A DNA stretch of 64,000 bases, from positions 1 to 64,000 of the forward strand of contig WION01000271.1 of assembly GCA_015039365.1 (NCBI GenBank). The letters run 5' to 3'. Both the position numbers and the translations under genes were made by a program. Under the pieces are notes generated by a model. The model was not told where the DNA came from. It ran no database searches and saw only the letters and a list, made by a program, of their open reading frames with translations. Of this stretch, positions 42,685 through 63,500 are shown in pieces. Within the stretch, counting starts at the first letter, position 1, and each line of letters starts with the position of its first letter. Source of the DNA: Amanita rubescens. Its lineage: Eukaryota; Basidiomycota; Agaricomycetes; Agaricales; Amanitaceae.

Positions 42685-45600
42685 ATGGTGGACACTGCTG
42701 GTGCACATGTATCAGGTATTTTGAAATATAAGGGGTGGCCCCTTGTGCCCTGCAGAGACTTATGTGGGATATATCACAGTGCTTAAGGAACAATACAAAT
42801 GCCCCCATTTTCGTGTTCTTATCATGGGAAGGGCCAATGCAGGCAAAACAACCATTCTTGAGAAGGTCTGTGGTGTAGAGAGTGGGACAGAACCTATCAT
42901 TTATGACCAGAATGGTGAGTAAACCAAACACTCAGTTACTTACATGTATTCAGTGTTTAAGGTGAACAATTGGTTCCTTCCACAATAAATTTGTCACCAA
43001 CAATGGAGGTGAGTTGACTCATGAGAACAAATGACTGAAACAGATGCAATCTGAGATTGTAGCGAGGGATTCATGATATTGAGCACCAAATTACATACCC
43101 TGGAAGTAACTTTATCTTCCATGACTCTCAGGGTTTTGAATCTGGTGCAAGTGAGGAGTTGGAGAATGTTTGGAGATTCATTGACAAGAGGTTAAGTGCA
43201 ACTCGAGTTAAGGATCAATTACATGCAATCTGGTATTTTTTGTTGTTCATTCTTTACAACATTAGATGGTTATGCTTTTTATAGGTACTGCATACCCATG
43301 GACAGTCCTCGTCCTCTTCTGCCTGCAGAACTTGAATTTTTCACCAAAGGTATTGGGAAAGGTTAGTCCTTACTATTGTCAATATTTGGTTGAGTTGGCA
43401 AGCTGCCTCTCAAGCCTTCCTTGGAACTTTCCACTAATTGAGACCTTTGCAGTGCCTTTGGTAGTGATATTCACCAAGTTTGATGGTCAAATAATTCAAG
43501 AGTCTACTCAGTTGAATGAAGCTGAAGATAAGTGGGAGAAGGCAAGAGAAAATGCTGATAAGACTTTTCAGGGAGTTTATCTTCCTAAAGTTCTGAGCAC
43601 AAGATATCCCCCAAAAGCCTATGTGCGATTGGAAGGTGGAAATAAAAAATATATAATAATATATGGAAATCCTAAGTTATCCAACAGATATGGACATTCC
43701 AGGGAATAACTGTCCAGAATTGACTGAAAAGACTGCTGATGTAATTGATGATGCTAGTCTTCTGCAGTTGTTTGTCTCAACACAGATGAACAATGTCAAC
43801 ATTTGCATCAAAGTTGCACTTGAGTAAGAATCACATTATGTATGAACATCAATCTGAATTTCACAATCTTTAGATCTGTTTTAGCTGCAAAAGATTCCAA
43901 ATGGAAGATAGTTTTTATGTTGGTTCTGATCAACTTTCCACATTATTGGGTGAGTCTGTGGCATATACATACTAACAAGAATGTCAAAGACTTAAGATAA
44001 ACACCAGAGTATTTTAGCAGTATGTTCCTTCAATACAAATGAGCCACACTGCAAACAGCTGAAGCATCTAATAGGTTGTAAGTATAATAACATGCCCTTG
44101 CATGCTTATGTGCTCAATCATAGCACATGGAACAGGATGAACCAAATGTGGGAAATATGACTTGATATTGCAGCGTTTTAGAAATTCTAATCACATCACA
44201 TCACATTACCAACAGCTTGTGTGTGATGTCACAGCCTTATTTTCTTGGGAGGTTCAATCATACCTCATTATAACCAATAGGAAGTGAGTAATACTGCAAT
44301 ATTTTCTCCTTAACAGTTTGATCATATTATGTGCAGAATGTAAGTAATCCTGCATTGTGTTTCCTCCAGACAGCTTGATTACATTTCTGACATGATTAAT
44401 AGTCAGTAAGTAACATAAAGTCTTTTTTTTCCTGCCAGGCAGTCTAATCATGTCACATATCATGACCAACAGCAAGTAAATGACTCACCAGTTGTCATTT
44501 TTTCACCAGGCAGTCTAATGGAATCTTGTCCTATGATTATTAGACAGTGAGTAAGGCTGCCATTTTGCTTTGGCAGACAATCTGATCATGTCTCATGCTG
44601 TGATCAATAGCTTGTGAGTTACACACCTTTTTACCAGGAATTACATTCAAATCCCACCCCAATTCCAACAGAAGGTGAGTGGCTGGGAGTCCTTGGTTTT
44701 CTGCACCACTGAATCAATTTCTGTATTATATGTAATATGACCAACAGCAAGTGAGGGCAATTTTGCTGTGTTCTATTGAGCAATGTAACCACATCCACTG
44801 TATCCCTTGTCAACAGAAGGTCCATAAGTGATGCTGCATTCCTTTGTTGTCAGACAGTCTGATACATCTCACCTATGATTGACAGATTGTGAGTGATGCT
44901 GTGATATTTTTCTTGTGGGTGATCTGATCATGCCTCATCCCATGGGCAATAGCTTGTGAGTGATGCTAGTGTTTCCTTACAGTTTTCTTGGACACAATCT
45001 GATAACATGTCTCATGACAAATAGCAAGTGAGTAACTCTGGGTGCTTTTCTGTCATGCAGTCCATGATTTACATCTTATCACATAACAAAAAGGGGGTGA
45101 GTAGCCTGATTATTGTATTTTCTGCTGGATAATTTGATCACATCTCATTAATGAGCCACAGGGTGTGAGTGACATGTCTCTCAAGTAAAAGTAAATGGTC
45201 TGATCATGTTACACTCATAACCAATAACAGCAAGTGAGTAAAACTGCTTCTTCCAGGCTGTCTGACCACTCATGGCCAACAGATTGTGAGTAGTGCTCAT
45301 ATCCTTTTCACATATCCCAGTGAACACCCCTCAACAACAGGGAGTGAGCAAAACATTTTTGCCGGAAAGACTGATTACAACTTACCCCATGATCAATAGT
45401 GGGCAAGTGACATTGCCTTTTCTAAAAGGCAATCTAACTACTTTTCTTCTTATGTCAAACAGCAAGTGAGTGAAACTTCAGTTATGTTTCTTTAAAGCAT
45501 TCAAATCACCTGTCACTCAGTCTGTCAGTCTAGAGTTCTTTCACCAGACATTCTAATTCCCATATCAATTCACAACAAACAGGTTGTAAGTGGTAGTGCA

Positions 45601-48600
45601 GTTTTTGTCCAAAGCACTCTGATAGTAATACCATGTACAATTCCAAAGCTTGTAAGTGATCCTGCATTGTTTTTTACATCCCATCCCATGCTGTGATAAC
45701 AGGAGGTCTGTGTGATGTTCTGCAAAGCAGTCTGATCAAATTCAATCTTCATGACCACCAGGAAGTGAGTAGGAGTACATGCTTTGTTTCCTGCAGCTCA
45801 ATTTTTTGCCTCCAATAGTGGGTGAGCAGGGCTGGTATACTTTATGAAAACAGTATAATCACATCAAGTCCATTATGAACAGTGGGTGAGTGACACTGCA
45901 CAAGTCTTCAGAAATGTAGTCTCATCACATCACACCATCAACAGCAAGTGTGTGACATTCCAATGATTTCTTTTGGCAGCCTTATCACAGCTAATTCCAT
46001 GACCAACAGGATGTAAGTGGTACTTGCAGCATTTTTCTCCCATACATTCTTTTCATTATGTGACCATGAACAGACTGTAAGTGCCAATAAATACTTTGTG
46101 TACCAGGGAGCCAATCCCATTAAATTCCTGGTGATCAACAGGTTGTGAGTTGCACTGCTGTACGGTTTTTATTATTATCTCACTGCATACCACTGTGGGA
46201 ACAGGTTGTGGGTGATTCTGCAATTTTTGCAGCCAACCAGTCTGATTACTTCTTATCATACAACAACAGCCAGTGAGTAAGGCTAATTCCTGTCAGTCAA
46301 CCTGACCAAATCTCATCATGTAGGATGTGAGTAATATGTTTCCAGGAAATCTGATTGCATCCTATCCTGTAACCAACAGCAAGTGGGTACAGTCACTGCA
46401 ATGTTGTTCTGCAAAGTAGCTGGATCAACTCATTCCATGACCATCAGGAGGTAAGCAATACTGTCCCTCTTCAAGCCTGCCAGGCAGTCTTATTACTTTT
46501 CATCCCATGACCAACAGCAAGTGAGCAGTACTTTTGGCCAGATACTGTAGTCTGATTGCATGGAACCTCATGACCAACAGGATGTGAGTAATTCTGCCAT
46601 GAAATTTTCACTGGGAATAGACTAGTACACCTAATTGCTTCCCTAATAGTGGGTAAGTTGCACTGCATTGTCTTCTCACATACAGCTTGATGATAGGTAT
46701 TTCATTCCATGACAAATAGGAAGTGGGTAACACTGCAGTATCTTCACTCTGACCACATCTTACACCATACCAACAGAGAGTGAGTGATATTGCAGTGATT
46801 TCTGTTAGCTGTCTTGTCTCAACATATGATCTACAGTGGGTGAGCAATGTTGCAACATTTTATTCATGCTGTCTGACCATATCTCTTCACATGATCAATA
46901 GCTTGTGGGTAACATAGTTGCACTTTTTTTTCAGTGATCTGATCACAACATTCTATGATAACAGGATGTTAGTAATAATAGTTTGGTTCCAGCTACTATC
47001 ATCACATCTCATGTGCTAATTGATAGCTTGTGAGACTGCAATGTTTCTGCATGGTCATTTTGAAAAAGTCTCATGATGTTGATTAGCTTGTGAGTGGCAG
47101 TGGACTCACCATTTCCCAGCAGTCTGAATACATGTCACCATGATCAACAGCGGGTAAATAATACTATTGCAATGTTCACCAAGCAGAAATTCTGATCACA
47201 ACACAATGAGTGACAGATAGTATGTGATTGCATTGTGGCTTTAAGATTTGAGTCTTTATTTCCTATCTCACAACCAACAGCAAGTCAGTGACAATGTGGT
47301 CTTTCTCTGCCACACAATCTGATTATTTCTCCCAACATTGACCATAGGTTGTGAGTCACTTCAGTTTCTTCTGTTGAGAATTTTCAAGACTCATCCCATG
47401 ATGAACAGGAGGTGACTTGCAGTCTTAATCAACCAGGCAGCCTAATCATGTTTTGTGCAATGATAATCAATAGCTTGTAGGTGATGATGGTGTGCTATGC
47501 TAGCAGAGAGTCTGATGAAATCTGGTTAACAGGTTGTGAGTAACAGTGCACCATTTTTTAGCCAAGCTGAAGCAGCCTGGTCTTGTGGTGTATTGTTGCA
47601 TCTTAGGAAGTGAGTGTCACAATTTTTTGTCTGCTGGGCAGTTATCTGATCCTCATTGCATAACTAACAGCTTGTGAGTGACTGTACTGCCAGAGGTTTT
47701 CATGTCTCATGTACATACATGATCCAGGATCCACAACAAGTGAGTGGTAATGCAATAATGTGATTACACCTTATCCAATGATCAACAGCTAGTGAGTGTC
47801 ACCACATCCTATTCTTCCAGGCAACCAGGTTAATCTAATTTATGCTGGTTTTTAGCAAGTGTGTGGCACTTTCAGATAGTCTAGTTACATGCCATATCAT
47901 GACCAACAGGAAGTGAGTACTACCATAGTGATGTTCTGAGTCCATGGTCTTTGATTGAATCTTTTCTCATGATCAACAGGAAGTGAGTGAGACATGAGTG
48001 ATATTCTGGCAGGCAGTGTGATCACACTTGTCATATGTCCAACAGATGGTGAGTGACTCTGTGACCTTTTTATGCCAGGTCTAATCATTGTCATTTCATG
48101 GCCAATAGGAGGTGAGTGATGCTGCAGTGTTTTTGCCAAGCAATCTCACCTCATCCCAAAAGACTGTGAGTGACACAGAAAACTTTTTGGCAGCCAGCAT
48201 AATCATGTTTTATGCATTTATAATAGATGGTGAGAGCACTGGAATGTATTTTGCCACAATGTCTGATTACATCAAATGGTCACACACATTACTAACATAA
48301 TTGTGATGGACCACAGGTAGTGAGTGATAAGGCTTGCACTGTGTTTGTGCTTGGCAATAAGATAATGACATGGTTCATCCCATTGCCAACAGCAAGTGGG
48401 TGACAGTGTAGTTTTTCCTTGTTAATCACGCAGCTCATACCATCCCTTAATGATAGGAAGTGAGTCTGAGACATTCTTCTGTCAGGTAATTTAATCAAAT
48501 GTTGTCCTTTCATAAAGGTTGTGAGTGATGATGCTGCATTGATCTTCTGCAGAACAGCATGATAAAATCTGATGACCAACAGCAACTGGTGATACTGCAA

Positions 48601-50155
48601 TTCTTGTTTTTCTGCCACTCAGTCTTCTCACAGCCAATAGGGAGTGAGTGATAATACTATTTCCCTTGTTCTGCTGCCAGCCAATCTCATAAAATTACCA
48701 ACAGTTTGTAAGTGGTAATGCAGCTTTTTTATGTCAAACAATTAAATCATATACCTTGTTATGCACCAATTAACAGAAAGTGAGTGATAATGTGGTTTTT
48801 GTTCCAGACAATGTGATTATATCTTATTCCACATGGAACAGTTTGTGAGTGGGACTCCAGTAATTTCTGCAAATCAATCAGTCACATATCACCCAATTCA
48901 AAAAAGCAAGTAAGTGCTCCTGCAGTATTCTTTTCCCAGTCAGTCTAATCATATCTCCCAATGAGCAACAGTTTGTGAGCAATATTGTAGAGTTTTATCT
49001 TAGAACTCTAATCACATCACATCCCATGACCAACAGCAAGTGAGTGACACTGTATAATACCATCTCCAGGCAGTCCAATCAAAATTGTTGCAATAGCAAG
49101 TTAGTGATTCTACAGTATAGCTCTGCTACAATGCACTCTAAACACACTGTATCATGTGATGAACAGCTTGTGAGCACAAAACCAATCTTTTTTCATCCCA
49201 ACTGGTCTCATTTAAGACTGCCAGGATGTAAGTGACACAACATGTTTTGATTCTATTTGGCTTGGTCATGTTACAACTCAAAAACAGCAAGTCAGTAGCA
49301 CCACACTGGTTTCAGCCGTATAGTATGATGTACCCTAATTCCATCCACCAACAGATTGTTGGTGCACCACTGTTTTCATTGTCCTCCAACCTGGCCTGAC
49401 CATATCTCATACCCTGAATACTCTGACAAACAGTTTGTGAGTAATGTGGCATTGAATTCAGATCTCATCCTTATACAAACAGGCTGTGAGTAATCATTGC
49501 AATATTTCCTGCCATGGAGTCCAATTTCAATATATCCCATCAAACAGCAAGTAAGAAAATATATTGTCTTTTCTATCTTCTTCCACATTCACACTCACTA
49601 TTATCCATAGATTGTATGGCATTATACATACATGGCCTTCAAAGTACATTCTGATGACATGTGCTATCATACTGGTTCTCTAGGTCAGTGGTAAAACACA
49701 CAAGAGGTTGATATACATGCTAATGAGTACTTAGCTTGTGTGCCATTACCAGATTAAGTTGATATTCCACTCATTCTAGTTGCTAGACTGGACTTCTCTC
49801 TTTGTTTGGAGATGCTCCATCAAATTTTGAAGAAACTGTAAGAGTCATATTTATGCCTGTAGTACACAGCTGACATAATGTAACCAGCCTGTAGCCTTCC
49901 AAATCTTAGCCTGTAATACACAATGCTTTGATTTATGTTTTTGAATTGATATTGTGCATGCTAGCAATGGTTGTCCTTGCCAAGCTGTCATTTTCCATAA
50001 GGAAGCCACTCCTTGTGTCATTACAAGATGCACTTACCCAGTTCAAGGAACAAGACTATATGGGCAAACTCAAGATGCAGATTACTTCTGAATCTTTGCC
50101 TTCTGACAAAAAAGCTTTGACTACCTTTCTATATGATTTGGCTATTTGCATCTAA
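42685..50155 (+). CDS. P-loop GTPase whose 3' half is split into one-codon exons
   Basis: Exons 42685-42700, 42756-42914, 42962-43008, 43063-43232, 43285-43361, 43453-43635, 43688-43823 and 43874-43949 join in phase, giving 288 codons with a full G domain. G1 is GRANAGKTTILEKV, a candidate switch region LSPTMERGIHDIEHQ, G3 HDSQGFESG, then QLHAIWYCIPMDSPRP, G4 VVIFTKFDGQ. A helical part (ELTEKTADVIDDASLLQLFVSTQ) ends in FPHYW, all typical of a GTPase family expanded in agaricomycetes; its role there is unknown. From 43950 the gene enters the array of three-base exons (44008-49550), then an 11-codon exon (49611-49643). A final frame ending at 50155 carries QDALTQFKEQDYMGKLKMQI and a hydrophobic stretch. 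The joins between 49644 and about 49950 are unsolved. CpG is nearly absent throughout. Confidence 0.8.
44008..49550 (+). other. Array of about 82 one-codon (3-base) exons between short introns
   Basis: Repeating pattern: acceptor (mostly CAACAG or AATAG), exactly three bases, donor (mostly GTGAGT or GTAAGT), about 15-25 bases, a branch-like CTGATCA or CTAATCA, about 20-30 bases, next acceptor. Unit length averages about 66 bp. Examples of exons: GAA 44281-44283, AAT 44337-44339, TCA 44403-44405, TGG 45400-45402, CAA 49548-49550. Longer exons are 44008-44019 (12), 44124-44147 (24), about 47726-47737 (12) and about 48583-48588 (6). All keep phase 0 with the GTPase exon before and the 11-codon exon after. 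No exon is a stop codon; CAA, CTT, GAA, GTT, GAT and TGG are commonest. Between the signals the units are barely alignable, unlike an ordinary minisatellite. Counts are by eye. Confidence 0.82.
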
Positions 50156-50228: not shown

Positions 50229-50262
50229 CATAGTGACGGTCCCATATGGGACCGTCACTATG
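50229..50262. repeat. Perfect 34 bp palindrome
   Basis: Two arms of 17 bases (catagtgacggtcccat and its reverse complement) without a spacer, just after the GTPase gene's stop. It contains two of the very few CpG sites of this region. It could be a transcription-end hairpin, a protein-binding site or a transposon footprint. Confidence 0.85.
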
Positions 50263-54400: not shown

Positions 54401-54764
54401 AGTACTACTGCTGCCACTGCTCTGGTTTGGCCCCCCAGCCCAACCCAGACATAGGCTGACACCACCAACCACCACATTCCACGGACCACCAGTAGTATTC
54501 ATTACCCAGTCACTACCACTCATAGGTCACTGGTCACCAGACAGTTGATCCTAGTAGTACTACTTGAGAACTGTGGTTCCAAGGCCAAAGCTTAACAAAG
54601 GCTTCGGCCTTATCCTTTCACCATCACTGTTCATTTTTGTAATGGACAGTTAAGAGCCAGTAATTACCAAGATGTGGCTTGCCATGCAGGAGCAAACACA
54701 GCCTTACCTTGGCCTTGGCCACATGCTGCATGAAGTGGCGGCCCATACAGGCCAAGTAAGTGCT

Positions 54765-55215
54765 GGTGCTGGTGAATTGTGATGGTGAATTGTGATGGTG
54801 AATTGTGATGGTGAATTGTGATGGTGAGTGCTGTGATGGTGAGTGCTGGTGCTGGTGAGTGCTGTGATGGTGAGTGCTGTGATGGTGAGTGCTGGTGCTG
54901 GTGAGTGCTGTGATGGTGAGTGCTGTGATGGTGAGTGCTGGTGCTGGTGAGTGCTGTGATGGTGAGTGCTGGTGCTGGTGAGTGCTGTGATGGTGAGTGC
55001 TGGTGCTGGTGAGTGCTGTGATGGTGAGTGCTGGTGCTGGTGAGTGCTGGTGCTGGTGAGAGCTGTGATGGTGAGTGCTGGTGCTGGTGAGAGCTGTGAT
55101 GGTGAGGGCTGGTGCTGGTGAGTGCTGGTGCTGGTGAGCGCTGTGATGGTGAGTGCTGGTGCTGGTGAGTGCTGTGATGGTGAGTGCGGGTGTTGGTGAG
55201 TGCGGGTGCTGGTTG
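54765..55215. repeat. Minisatellite of 12-15 bp units
   Basis: About 430 bp made of 'gtgatggtgagtgct' and 'ggtgctggtgagtgct' units in irregular order, preceded by four 'gaattgtgatggt' units. The minus strand reads as a long His/Gln/Ser/Thr frame simply because the unit has no stop; I do not call it a gene. Confidence 0.9.
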
Positions 55216-60740: not shown

Positions 60741-61455
60741 TAGTATGGTGTGATGTACACCTTCTGAGGGGAGATTTGGGTATGGTGTGCTGTACACGAT
60801 TTGAGGAGAGATTTGAATATGGTGTGTTGTACACCATCTTTGGGTATGGTGTGCTGTACACCATTTGAGGAGAGATTTGAAAATGGTGTGTTGTACACCA
60901 TCTGTGGGGAGATATAGTGTGTTGTACACCATCTGTGGCGAGGTATGGTGTGTTGTACACTGTCTGAGGGGTATGGTGAGCTGTACACCATCTAGATATG
61001 GTGATTTCCACACCAAATTCAGGATTCCATTACCATATTTAGTAACCTATTACCATATTTGGCAGAAAGAGCTGTATTATAGAAGGATTCATTGCCATAT
61101 TTGGTAACCTATTACCATATTTGGCAATGCAGAATGGTGATTTGTACACCATTTTTGTATGATGTTGGAAACACCATAATACACCTATTACCATATTTGG
61201 AAATACACTTGCATTTTCAGAATGGTGATTTGTACACCATATTTTCAATGTATGGTGTTGCTAACACCATTTCTGACCAATTGGCAACATGGTGAAATAT
61301 ATACCATATTGAACAATAAGGTGATTCTGACACCATCTTTGGAAAGTGAATTGTACACCATACTGTAGGGTGTTTTCAACACCATTTTTAATCAATCAGA
61401 TATGGTGAATTATCCACCATATTAAATGTTATGCATTATGGTGGGTCCAACACCG
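60741..61455. repeat. Array of GGTG...CACC palindromes
   Basis: About fifteen short palindromes of the form (A)TGGTG-N(4-9)-CACCA(T), for example 'atggtgtgttgtacaccat' and 'atggtgatttgtacaccat'. In the first part they repeat every 40-45 bp with 'ttgaggagagatttg' spacers. Later the spacers differ while the palindrome stays. A second word, 'attaccatatttgg', recurs at 61.03-61.2 kb. The last palindrome is cut by the hAT element at 61456. Confidence 0.85.
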
Positions 61456-62929: not shown

Positions 62930-63500
62930 GTTCTCCAACACCGTTCCTCCGCCTCTCGCCCACAGTTTTCGTACACCAGCATGCCCATCATTCTTGAGAA
63001 CTATCCCCCATGCCCTCGTCTGCGGTTTTGTTATACTGGCACCCCCCATGGTTCTTTGGAACCATTCGCCATGCCCCCGCCCGCGGTTTTCTGACACTAG
63101 CAATGCCATGGTTCTTGCGAACCGTTCGCCCACCCTTGCCCGTGGTTTTCTTACACCAGCACCCCCATGGTTCTGTAGAACCAATCATCACGCCCCCACC
63201 CACAGTTTTCTTACACCAGCACGCCGTGGTTCTTGAGAACCGTTCGCCATGCCCCCCGGGCCGCCCGTGGTATTCTTACACTGGCGCCCCATGGTTTTCC
63301 AGAACCATTCTCCACGCCTTCGCCTGTGGTTTTCTTACACCAGTACGTACCCCCGTGGTTTTCTTACACCAACACCTCCATGGTTTTTTAGAACTGTTCC
63401 CCACGACCCGCGGTTTTCTTACACCAGTACCCCCATGGTTTTTTAGAGCCATTTTCCACCCCCTCGCCCGTGGTTTTCTTACACCGACATCGGCCATTTG
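62930..63500. repeat. Minisatellite of approximately 60 bp units
   Basis: About ten imperfect copies of a unit containing 'cccatggtt', '(g)aaccgttcgccatgccc', 'cgcccgtggttttcttacac' and 'cagca'. Long proline-rich frames on the plus strand and KNHGGxGVRKPR frames on the minus strand are consequences of the repeat. CpG is common here. Confidence 0.85.

Follow-up and report, generated by a model that had tools for sequence, protein, structure and literature searches.

A GTPase-like gene of Amanita rubescens with a middle part that very likely consists of single-codon exons

The DNA analysed here is a stretch of 64,000 nucleotides from the fungus Amanita rubescens (assembly GCA_015039365.1, contig WION01000271.1, positions 1 to 64,000, hereafter the window), and our subject is a GTPase-like gene on its forward strand at 42685-50155, the middle of which, judged from its sequence, very likely codes for protein although it is cut into 84 exons of a single codon each and four of slightly greater length. 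In our hand-built model the gene has 479 codons with one stop, the terminal one, and 98 introns, 97 of them GT-AG and one GC-AG. The GTPase half (42685..43949, + strand) was traced by its splice sites and open frame through eight ordinary exons (42685-42715, 42756-42914, 42962-43008, 43063-43232, 43285-43361, 43453-43635, 43688-43823 and 43874-43949) and ends in the residues FPHYW. Across 43950-49786, 88 micro-exons then alternate with introns of ~61 nt: 84 are 3 nt long, three are 12 nt (starting at 44008, 44136 and 47728) and one is 6 nt (starting at 48583). This array (44008..49613, +) is in frame, has introns of 46-87 nt and encodes the linker SILAVDEPNLENSQTLKQKILQGGQIGWQSVLEEWWQDTVVPDQEQDWERWLDLLRIQVELVELDPQQLQEEMETMVQEVQLGFKFQFQQLDQIFAQI. 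A last array intron of 173 nt (49614..49786, +) leads in the hand model to the C-terminal exons at 49787-49837, 49888-49912 and 49965-50155 (+), which were aligned with the C-terminal domain of the homologous protein P0014 and read TGLLSLFGDAPSNFEET, PVAFQILA and ..MVVLAKLSF...FLYDLAICI up to the stop. The original prediction had counted about 82 three-base units followed by an 11-codon exon at 49611; the succession of 3-nt exons stands, but their number is 84, and the supposed 11-codon exon gives way to ATT (49611-49613, +), best read as the final single-codon exon, with the gene continuing at 49787-50155.

The hand model was made with homologues in view, canonical in-frame sites being picked at weak places and sometimes overriding the automatic parse; the hand-chosen places are 44817, 46324, 47607, 47728 and 48583. 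At 44817..44825 (junction 44820, +) the codon AAG is followed by the donor GTCCAT and the automatic parse made an exon of 7 nt; the ATAAGT downstream fits the family but lacks the G of GT, and the paralogous locus L035 has ATAAAT there. The codon GAT at 46324 was skipped in the automatic parse, GAA at 47607 was parsed as 14 nt, and the exons GATCCACAACAA at 47728 and CAACTG at 48583 are likewise weak spots, as is the codon TGG at 45400..45408 (+), followed at 45403 by GCAAGT, the sole non-GT donor in the model.

The three-base size of these exons is exact. Within 43950-49786, YAG-NNN-GTRAGT occurs at 45 sites, against a mean of 0.21 and a maximum of 2 in 500 dinucleotide shuffles, and at the remaining YAG-to-GTRAGT spacings from 0 to 12 bases the only sites were single ones at 10 and 12. 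In 19 loci of the family, AACAG or AATAG was followed by GTRAGT at a spacing of 3 in 457 cases, of 6 in seven, and at each further spacing up to 40 in at most five, while the reversed-string control gave one case at spacing 3 and at most nine at any length. A splice-chain search with a flat prior on exon length, run over 21 loci that include near-duplicates, assigned 3 nt to 794 of 896 exons in its first round and to 1098 of 1190 in its last; the spacing counts in the 19 loci and the window shuffles are cleaner than this search, because sites at a distance of 3 nt had served to seed the splice-site profiles of the latter. Genome-wide, the strict flanks CAACAG and GTGAGTGA enclosed 2, 3, 4 or 6 bases (the spacings tried, all counts being lower bounds) in 14, 2177, 9 and 25 cases, against 0, 2, 0 and 2 for the reversed pattern; the exact CAACAG-NNN-GTGAGTGA units number at least 1087 on the forward and at least 1090 on the reverse strand (control, 1 and 1), and this strict form fits 129 of 784 parsed three-base exons.

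The triplets also carry a coding signal. Across 16 loci, three of the 784 three-base exons are stop triplets, where 42.4 would be expected from the base frequencies at each position; the L033 case has no AG acceptor, and a single TGA is common to L039 and L047. There are no stops among the 84 three-base exons of the window in the hand model. Among the strict units genome-wide, TAA or TGA was found once and TAG never, whereas the counterparts of TAA and TGA that begin with A, C or G total 1127, and simple arithmetic, given T as the first base of 16% of triplets, would predict ~216 TRA. When the triplets of the automatic parse were joined, stops fell at 3 of 776, 10 of 739 and 88 of 739 positions in the three frames. 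For two exons of L035 that depart from the 3-nt size, an in-frame 3-nt reading with a GT donor is available. The last exon base is biased: 0.9% of the 784 exons end in C and 9.9% in G, and of the window's 84 none ends in C and 15 end in G; in the same gene seven of the eight ordinary donors follow G, and the third codon positions of the GTPase part hold 44 C and 63 G out of 293.

The strongest evidence for single-codon exons, again a matter of sequence, is the agreement between the paralogous array L001 and the intron-free JGI protein P0015, in which the peptide read from L001 matches P0015 at 41 of 50 residues without a gap (35 of 43 for the 3-nt exons alone), with a score of 245 against 57 for the best of 500 shuffles. 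The 45 exons of L001 (43 of 3 nt, one of 18 and one of 4) read KHNEVDWFESADNAAAKERQYYDDGVHSAGYGYYGGEKISEKERDKRKDF, P0015 reads KHNEIDWFESADDAAGKEREYYDDGIHSGGYGYYGGKKISEKERDHRRDF, and this exon list was hand-fitted with P0015 in view; an earlier automatic parse, whose training came from other loci, had recovered FESADNAAAKERQYYDDGVH and AGYGYYGGEKISEKERDKRKD, though with mistakes ahead of and between these two stretches. Residues 238-315 of P0015 match C1:30667-30945, beside L001, at 90%, the highest identity among the matches listed. Nine of 23 JGI or ENA proteins extend at least 74 residues past the FPHYW-type motif, the others ending before it or soon after; P0012, P0014, P0015, P0044, P0088 and P0105 continue into the C-terminal domain, and P0016, P0020 and P0078 into other tails. 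When 21 arrays were compared with nine tails, L001 with P0015 was the best of the 189 comparisons, and each of the best 22 scored above all 500 shuffles, in some cases by one point or a few; these include L046 with P0016 (18 of 21 residues identical) and L001, L041 and L047 with P0012, P0014 and P0015, and the window array is not among these 22.

These results bear on a reading in which 43950-49786 is one long intron, removed whole, that holds a decaying tandem repeat with the splice-like motifs as its conserved part. Such a repeat would agree with the introns forming one sequence family, near-identical in young arrays, with the constant unit spacing on C8 and C13, with the frame being kept when the whole array is skipped, and with the annotated paralog P0082, which was modelled almost without a linker, FPHYW being joined nearly directly to the C-terminal domain. 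The triplets avoid stops, however, and a repeat would not hold a three-base size exactly while varying those very bases; nor would it lead one to expect that L043 and L046 keep 9 of 13 codons between introns that are 0.56 identical (0.51 when shifted), and the 41 of 50 P0015 residues spelled by L001 had already weakened it. We consider it very improbable. Three findings led us to discard the whole array as a long intron or a plain minisatellite: stops are avoided, the exon size is exact, and P0015 matches L001. The even decay and missing coding signal of a functionless minisatellite are not what the arrays display.

The whole spliced protein of the window gene is identical to P0014 at 250 of 484 positions, with little agreement in the linker. 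The family profile PF01926 (MMR_HSR1) scored 25.2 on the close homologue P0001, above its cut-off of 21.9, and P0012 and P0015 fell under that cut-off. A structural model of P0015, built with 21 sequences, has a mean predicted local distance difference test score (pLDDT) of 74.7, with a well-supported G domain and a mostly confident C-terminal helical part, and residues 316-357 score below 50. A Foldseek search with this model returned weak matches to dynamin-like and immunity-related GTPases, the query template-modelling score being at most 0.33 among the 50 matches listed; any part in recognition or defence would be guesswork. Going by the predicted structure, what the array exons encode is very likely a flexible segment that links one folded part of the protein to another.

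The original prediction had treated this layout as that of one gene; it belongs instead to a genome-wide family. The GTPase exon has at least 150 matches in the genome (150 scored among 249 candidates, duplicates included), and 19 of 20 slices around such matches contain many units beyond the exon, on the strand of the gene; the slice at L034 is without units, and its contig stops ~2.1 kb past the GTPase match. Of 22 unit clusters listed, 16 have a GTPase exon upstream on the same strand among the matches listed; by the same listing a cluster of nearly 9 kb at C3:126930-135643 has none close upstream. The window copy and L031 (C767) are identical over 5721 aligned bases of their arrays, and some copies are therefore duplicate contigs or very recent. 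Three of seven loci parsed together (L004, L009 and L172) gave no array on the strand tried and were dropped. Viral contigs held at least 120 matching stretches; among the 80 listed, three contain two matches and the other 77 one each, which we read as chance. The genome may hold ~13,000 single-codon exons, a rough figure that takes the loci sampled to be representative and includes duplicate contigs.

Paralogous arrays differ unevenly along their units. Between the window and L035, 2.4% of GT and AG bases changed, against 9.3% at donor positions +3 to +6 and 19.5% in the intron interior, with 20, 14 and 9% of exon bases changed. L037 and L038 differ at none of 108 exon bases and at 4.4% of the intron interior, and L044 and L046 differ at two of 39 exon bases over 13 codons, their introns being 0.78 identical at the same index and 0.52 when shifted; in these two pairs the codons have been kept better than the introns. 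The pair L042/L048 was aligned out of register and left out of the comparison. Splice sites are thus held, and the codons of the window group change nearly as fast as the introns. Taken together, these pairs agree with a linker whose length, frame and some motifs count for more than its exact residues. The ratio of silent to replacement changes was dropped as proof of coding, since replacements dominate and the last exon base is biased.

The central claim of the original prediction, that the exons are single codons, is supported by the few stop triplets, the frame that reaches the C-terminal domain, the slow change of GT and AG and the reading of the L001 peptide in P0015. It had also called the introns barely alignable and ascribed the pattern to selection on splice sites and not to a minisatellite. 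GT and AG are indeed among the slowest-changing intron bases, but the contrast with a minisatellite holds only in part, and the introns can be aligned to some extent: they form one repeated family, with a weak resemblance between their interiors, and are near-identical in some paralogs.

Mean identity of the intron interior is 0.545-0.568 within loci, 0.526 between loci and 0.482 after shuffling. Many near-identical introns stand at different positions in L042, L044 and L046; L044, for example, has 18 dissimilar introns and then ~39 near-identical ones of ~62 nt with different codons between them, and L046 follows the same pattern. Introns more than 85% identical share their downstream codon at about the chance rate (68 of 433 against 63.3 in L044, 37 of 218 against 37.6 in L042, 13 of 111 against 9.5 in L046), and the best intron partners between L044 and L046 are out of order; intron copies therefore seem to have spread without the codon. 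From these comparisons, array growth seems to be due mainly to copies of one intron family that came to lie between codons, either inserted there or produced when one intron converted another, a reading that leaves the exact three-base spacing of the introns unexplained. A three-base target-site duplication was rejected as the source of the codons: neighbouring codons are identical in 35 of 668 cases, where 41.6 would be expected, and are thus not in excess.

Alternatively, the arrays could have grown by duplication of an intron together with its codon, one residue per event, which would concern their origin alone. On C8 and C13 the units are spaced in steps of 56 and 65 bp, and the VRA-type triplets there, among the matches listed, are only CAA and CGA; intron identity also falls slightly with distance, from 0.568 at lag 1 to 0.545 at lag 20. 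Introns more than 92% identical share a codon above chance in places: upstream in 16 of 56 pairs and downstream in 10 of 56 in L044 (chance, 7.5), upstream in 7 of 26 and downstream in 2 of 26 in L042 (chance, 2.7), and downstream in 4 of 9 and upstream in none of 9 in L046 (chance, 1.8). This excess implies some unit duplication too. The lack of an excess of doubled codons and the chance-rate sharing above 85% identity speak against duplication as the main route, which we hold to be possible but doubtful.

Several results weigh against single-codon coding exons and the spread of one intron family. The automatic parse of the window array contains stops in each frame (4, 1 and 6), and it is the hand model, drawn up with homologues in view, that gives the open frame; in 10 of the 20 arrays parsed automatically the total length does not divide by three, and the 4-nt exon of L001 (AGCT) would shift the frame. 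Exons of 2 and 4 nt between strict flanks cluster, among the matches listed, at C749:2135-4150 (13 of 23 places) and C13:582038-583224 (5 of 23), and may perhaps be broken arrays or assembly indels. A protein search with the window's own linker gave no intron-free match at E 0.01 among 41 candidates, and a search with the P0015 tail found P0015 alone among 339. We took P0015 and its kin to be transcript-derived solely from the long intron-free frame filling a 1.5-kb contig, and they may instead be intron-free gene copies; the P0082 model described above belongs here as well. Codon changes between paralogs are mainly replacements (24 replacement and one silent for the window and L035, 21 and two for L039 and L047), so that either amino-acid constraint is weak in the window group or silent changes are blocked by the last-base bias. 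Finally, the branch-site-like motif CTRAY occurs in 170 of 724 introns, against 151.3 expected after shuffling, which is no clear enrichment, with a cluster 24-27 nt before the intron end; another candidate for the branch site is ATGACC, conserved at -11 to -6.

Other repeats lie downstream in the window. A perfect 32-base palindrome, ATAGTGACGGTCCCATATGGGACCGTCACTAT, at 50230-50261, 75 bases past the stop of the gene, is present in a single copy in the window with up to three mismatches allowed. At 54759-55213 a 31-bp tandem repeat (AGTGCTGGTGCTGGTGAGTGCTGTGATGGTG) runs to 14.7 copies, a period of 78 also fitting, and degenerate tandem repeats occupy 60742-60993 (periods 27-64 bp, by eye self-complementary, GGTGTGCTGTACACC) and 62957-63430 (periods 59-119 bp).

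We predict that an ordinary U2-type spliceosome joins the array exons in frame, for which it would have to splice the RNA through every unit; the GT-AG ends of 97 of the 98 introns, with GTRAGT-like donors and YAG acceptors, are those of U2-type introns. Introns would be removed stepwise, since two splicing complexes would not fit together on a three-base exon; every codon would thus join the exon upstream of it ahead of any use of the following donor, and the rarity of G and C as last exon base may reflect this crowding of splice complexes. Our belief is evenly divided over the full account, in which one intron family would have colonised successive codon boundaries of a linker across a large GTPase family (at least 150 places), giving ~13,000 single-codon exons, with the spliceosome walking the arrays codon by codon and the linkers free to grow, shrink and change one residue at a time in frame. 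A refinement of this account, not its opposite, would have the exons used selectively, subsets being skipped in frame to give many linker variants; of the window's 88 micro-exons 84 hold a single codon and the lengths of the remaining four divide by three, so that skipping would be frame-neutral, but the gapless match of P0015 to L001 over 50 positions looks, in this one case, like full inclusion, and we think selective use unlikely.

If spliced as read, the gene is divided by introns more finely than any coding sequence we found in the literature, with one intron per codon over nearly 100 codons; among the matches listed in the open-licence PMC literature, we found no report of such runs of single-codon exons. 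They would provide a limit test for splice-site recognition, since a donor follows its acceptor after three bases and this recurs dozens of times in succession, and a model for intron spread at codon precision, and would expose genes overlooked by annotation, the C-terminal domain being present, as read by eye, in P0082 only of the 21 annotated family proteins.

Among the known systems closest to this layout are the micro-exon genes of schistosomes. These have 10 to 20 exons each, of 6-81 bp (3-81 in the abstract) and mostly 15 bp, with introns of up to ~5 kb, and encode secreted proteins (PMC10526429). The window gene resembles them in a coding stretch of mostly very short exons, in lengths that are multiples of three (mostly so in schistosomes) and in being hard to annotate automatically, and differs in its 84 three-base exons, its ~61-nt introns and its GTPase-like, fungal product, which place it outside that family of secreted schistosome proteins (PMC10526429). 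Plants splice exons as small as the 1-nt exon of APC11 (PMC4674806) and microexons of 1-15 nt, VPS55 microexon donors being GTRAGT (PMC8831610), yet in the passages cited these occur singly or two adjoining, whereas in Amanita tens follow in succession. Xlr2 of Trichoderma likewise has a micro-exon in a filamentous fungus, but a single, regulated one, and its authors state that none had been described earlier in filamentous fungi (PMC11121469). Introners are similar spliceosomal introns multiplied in a genome, as the near-identical introns of L042, L044 and L046 are here; they land in many genes (PMC4457414, PMC9860276), whereas the Amanita copies sit at successive codon boundaries, in phase 0, of one gene family, without the excess of doubled codons that a 3-bp target-site duplication would leave. 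Recursive splicing also brings acceptor and donor almost into contact and removes introns stepwise, but its ratchet points are juxtaposed within long introns (PMC8605326), whereas each step in Amanita would leave one codon behind.

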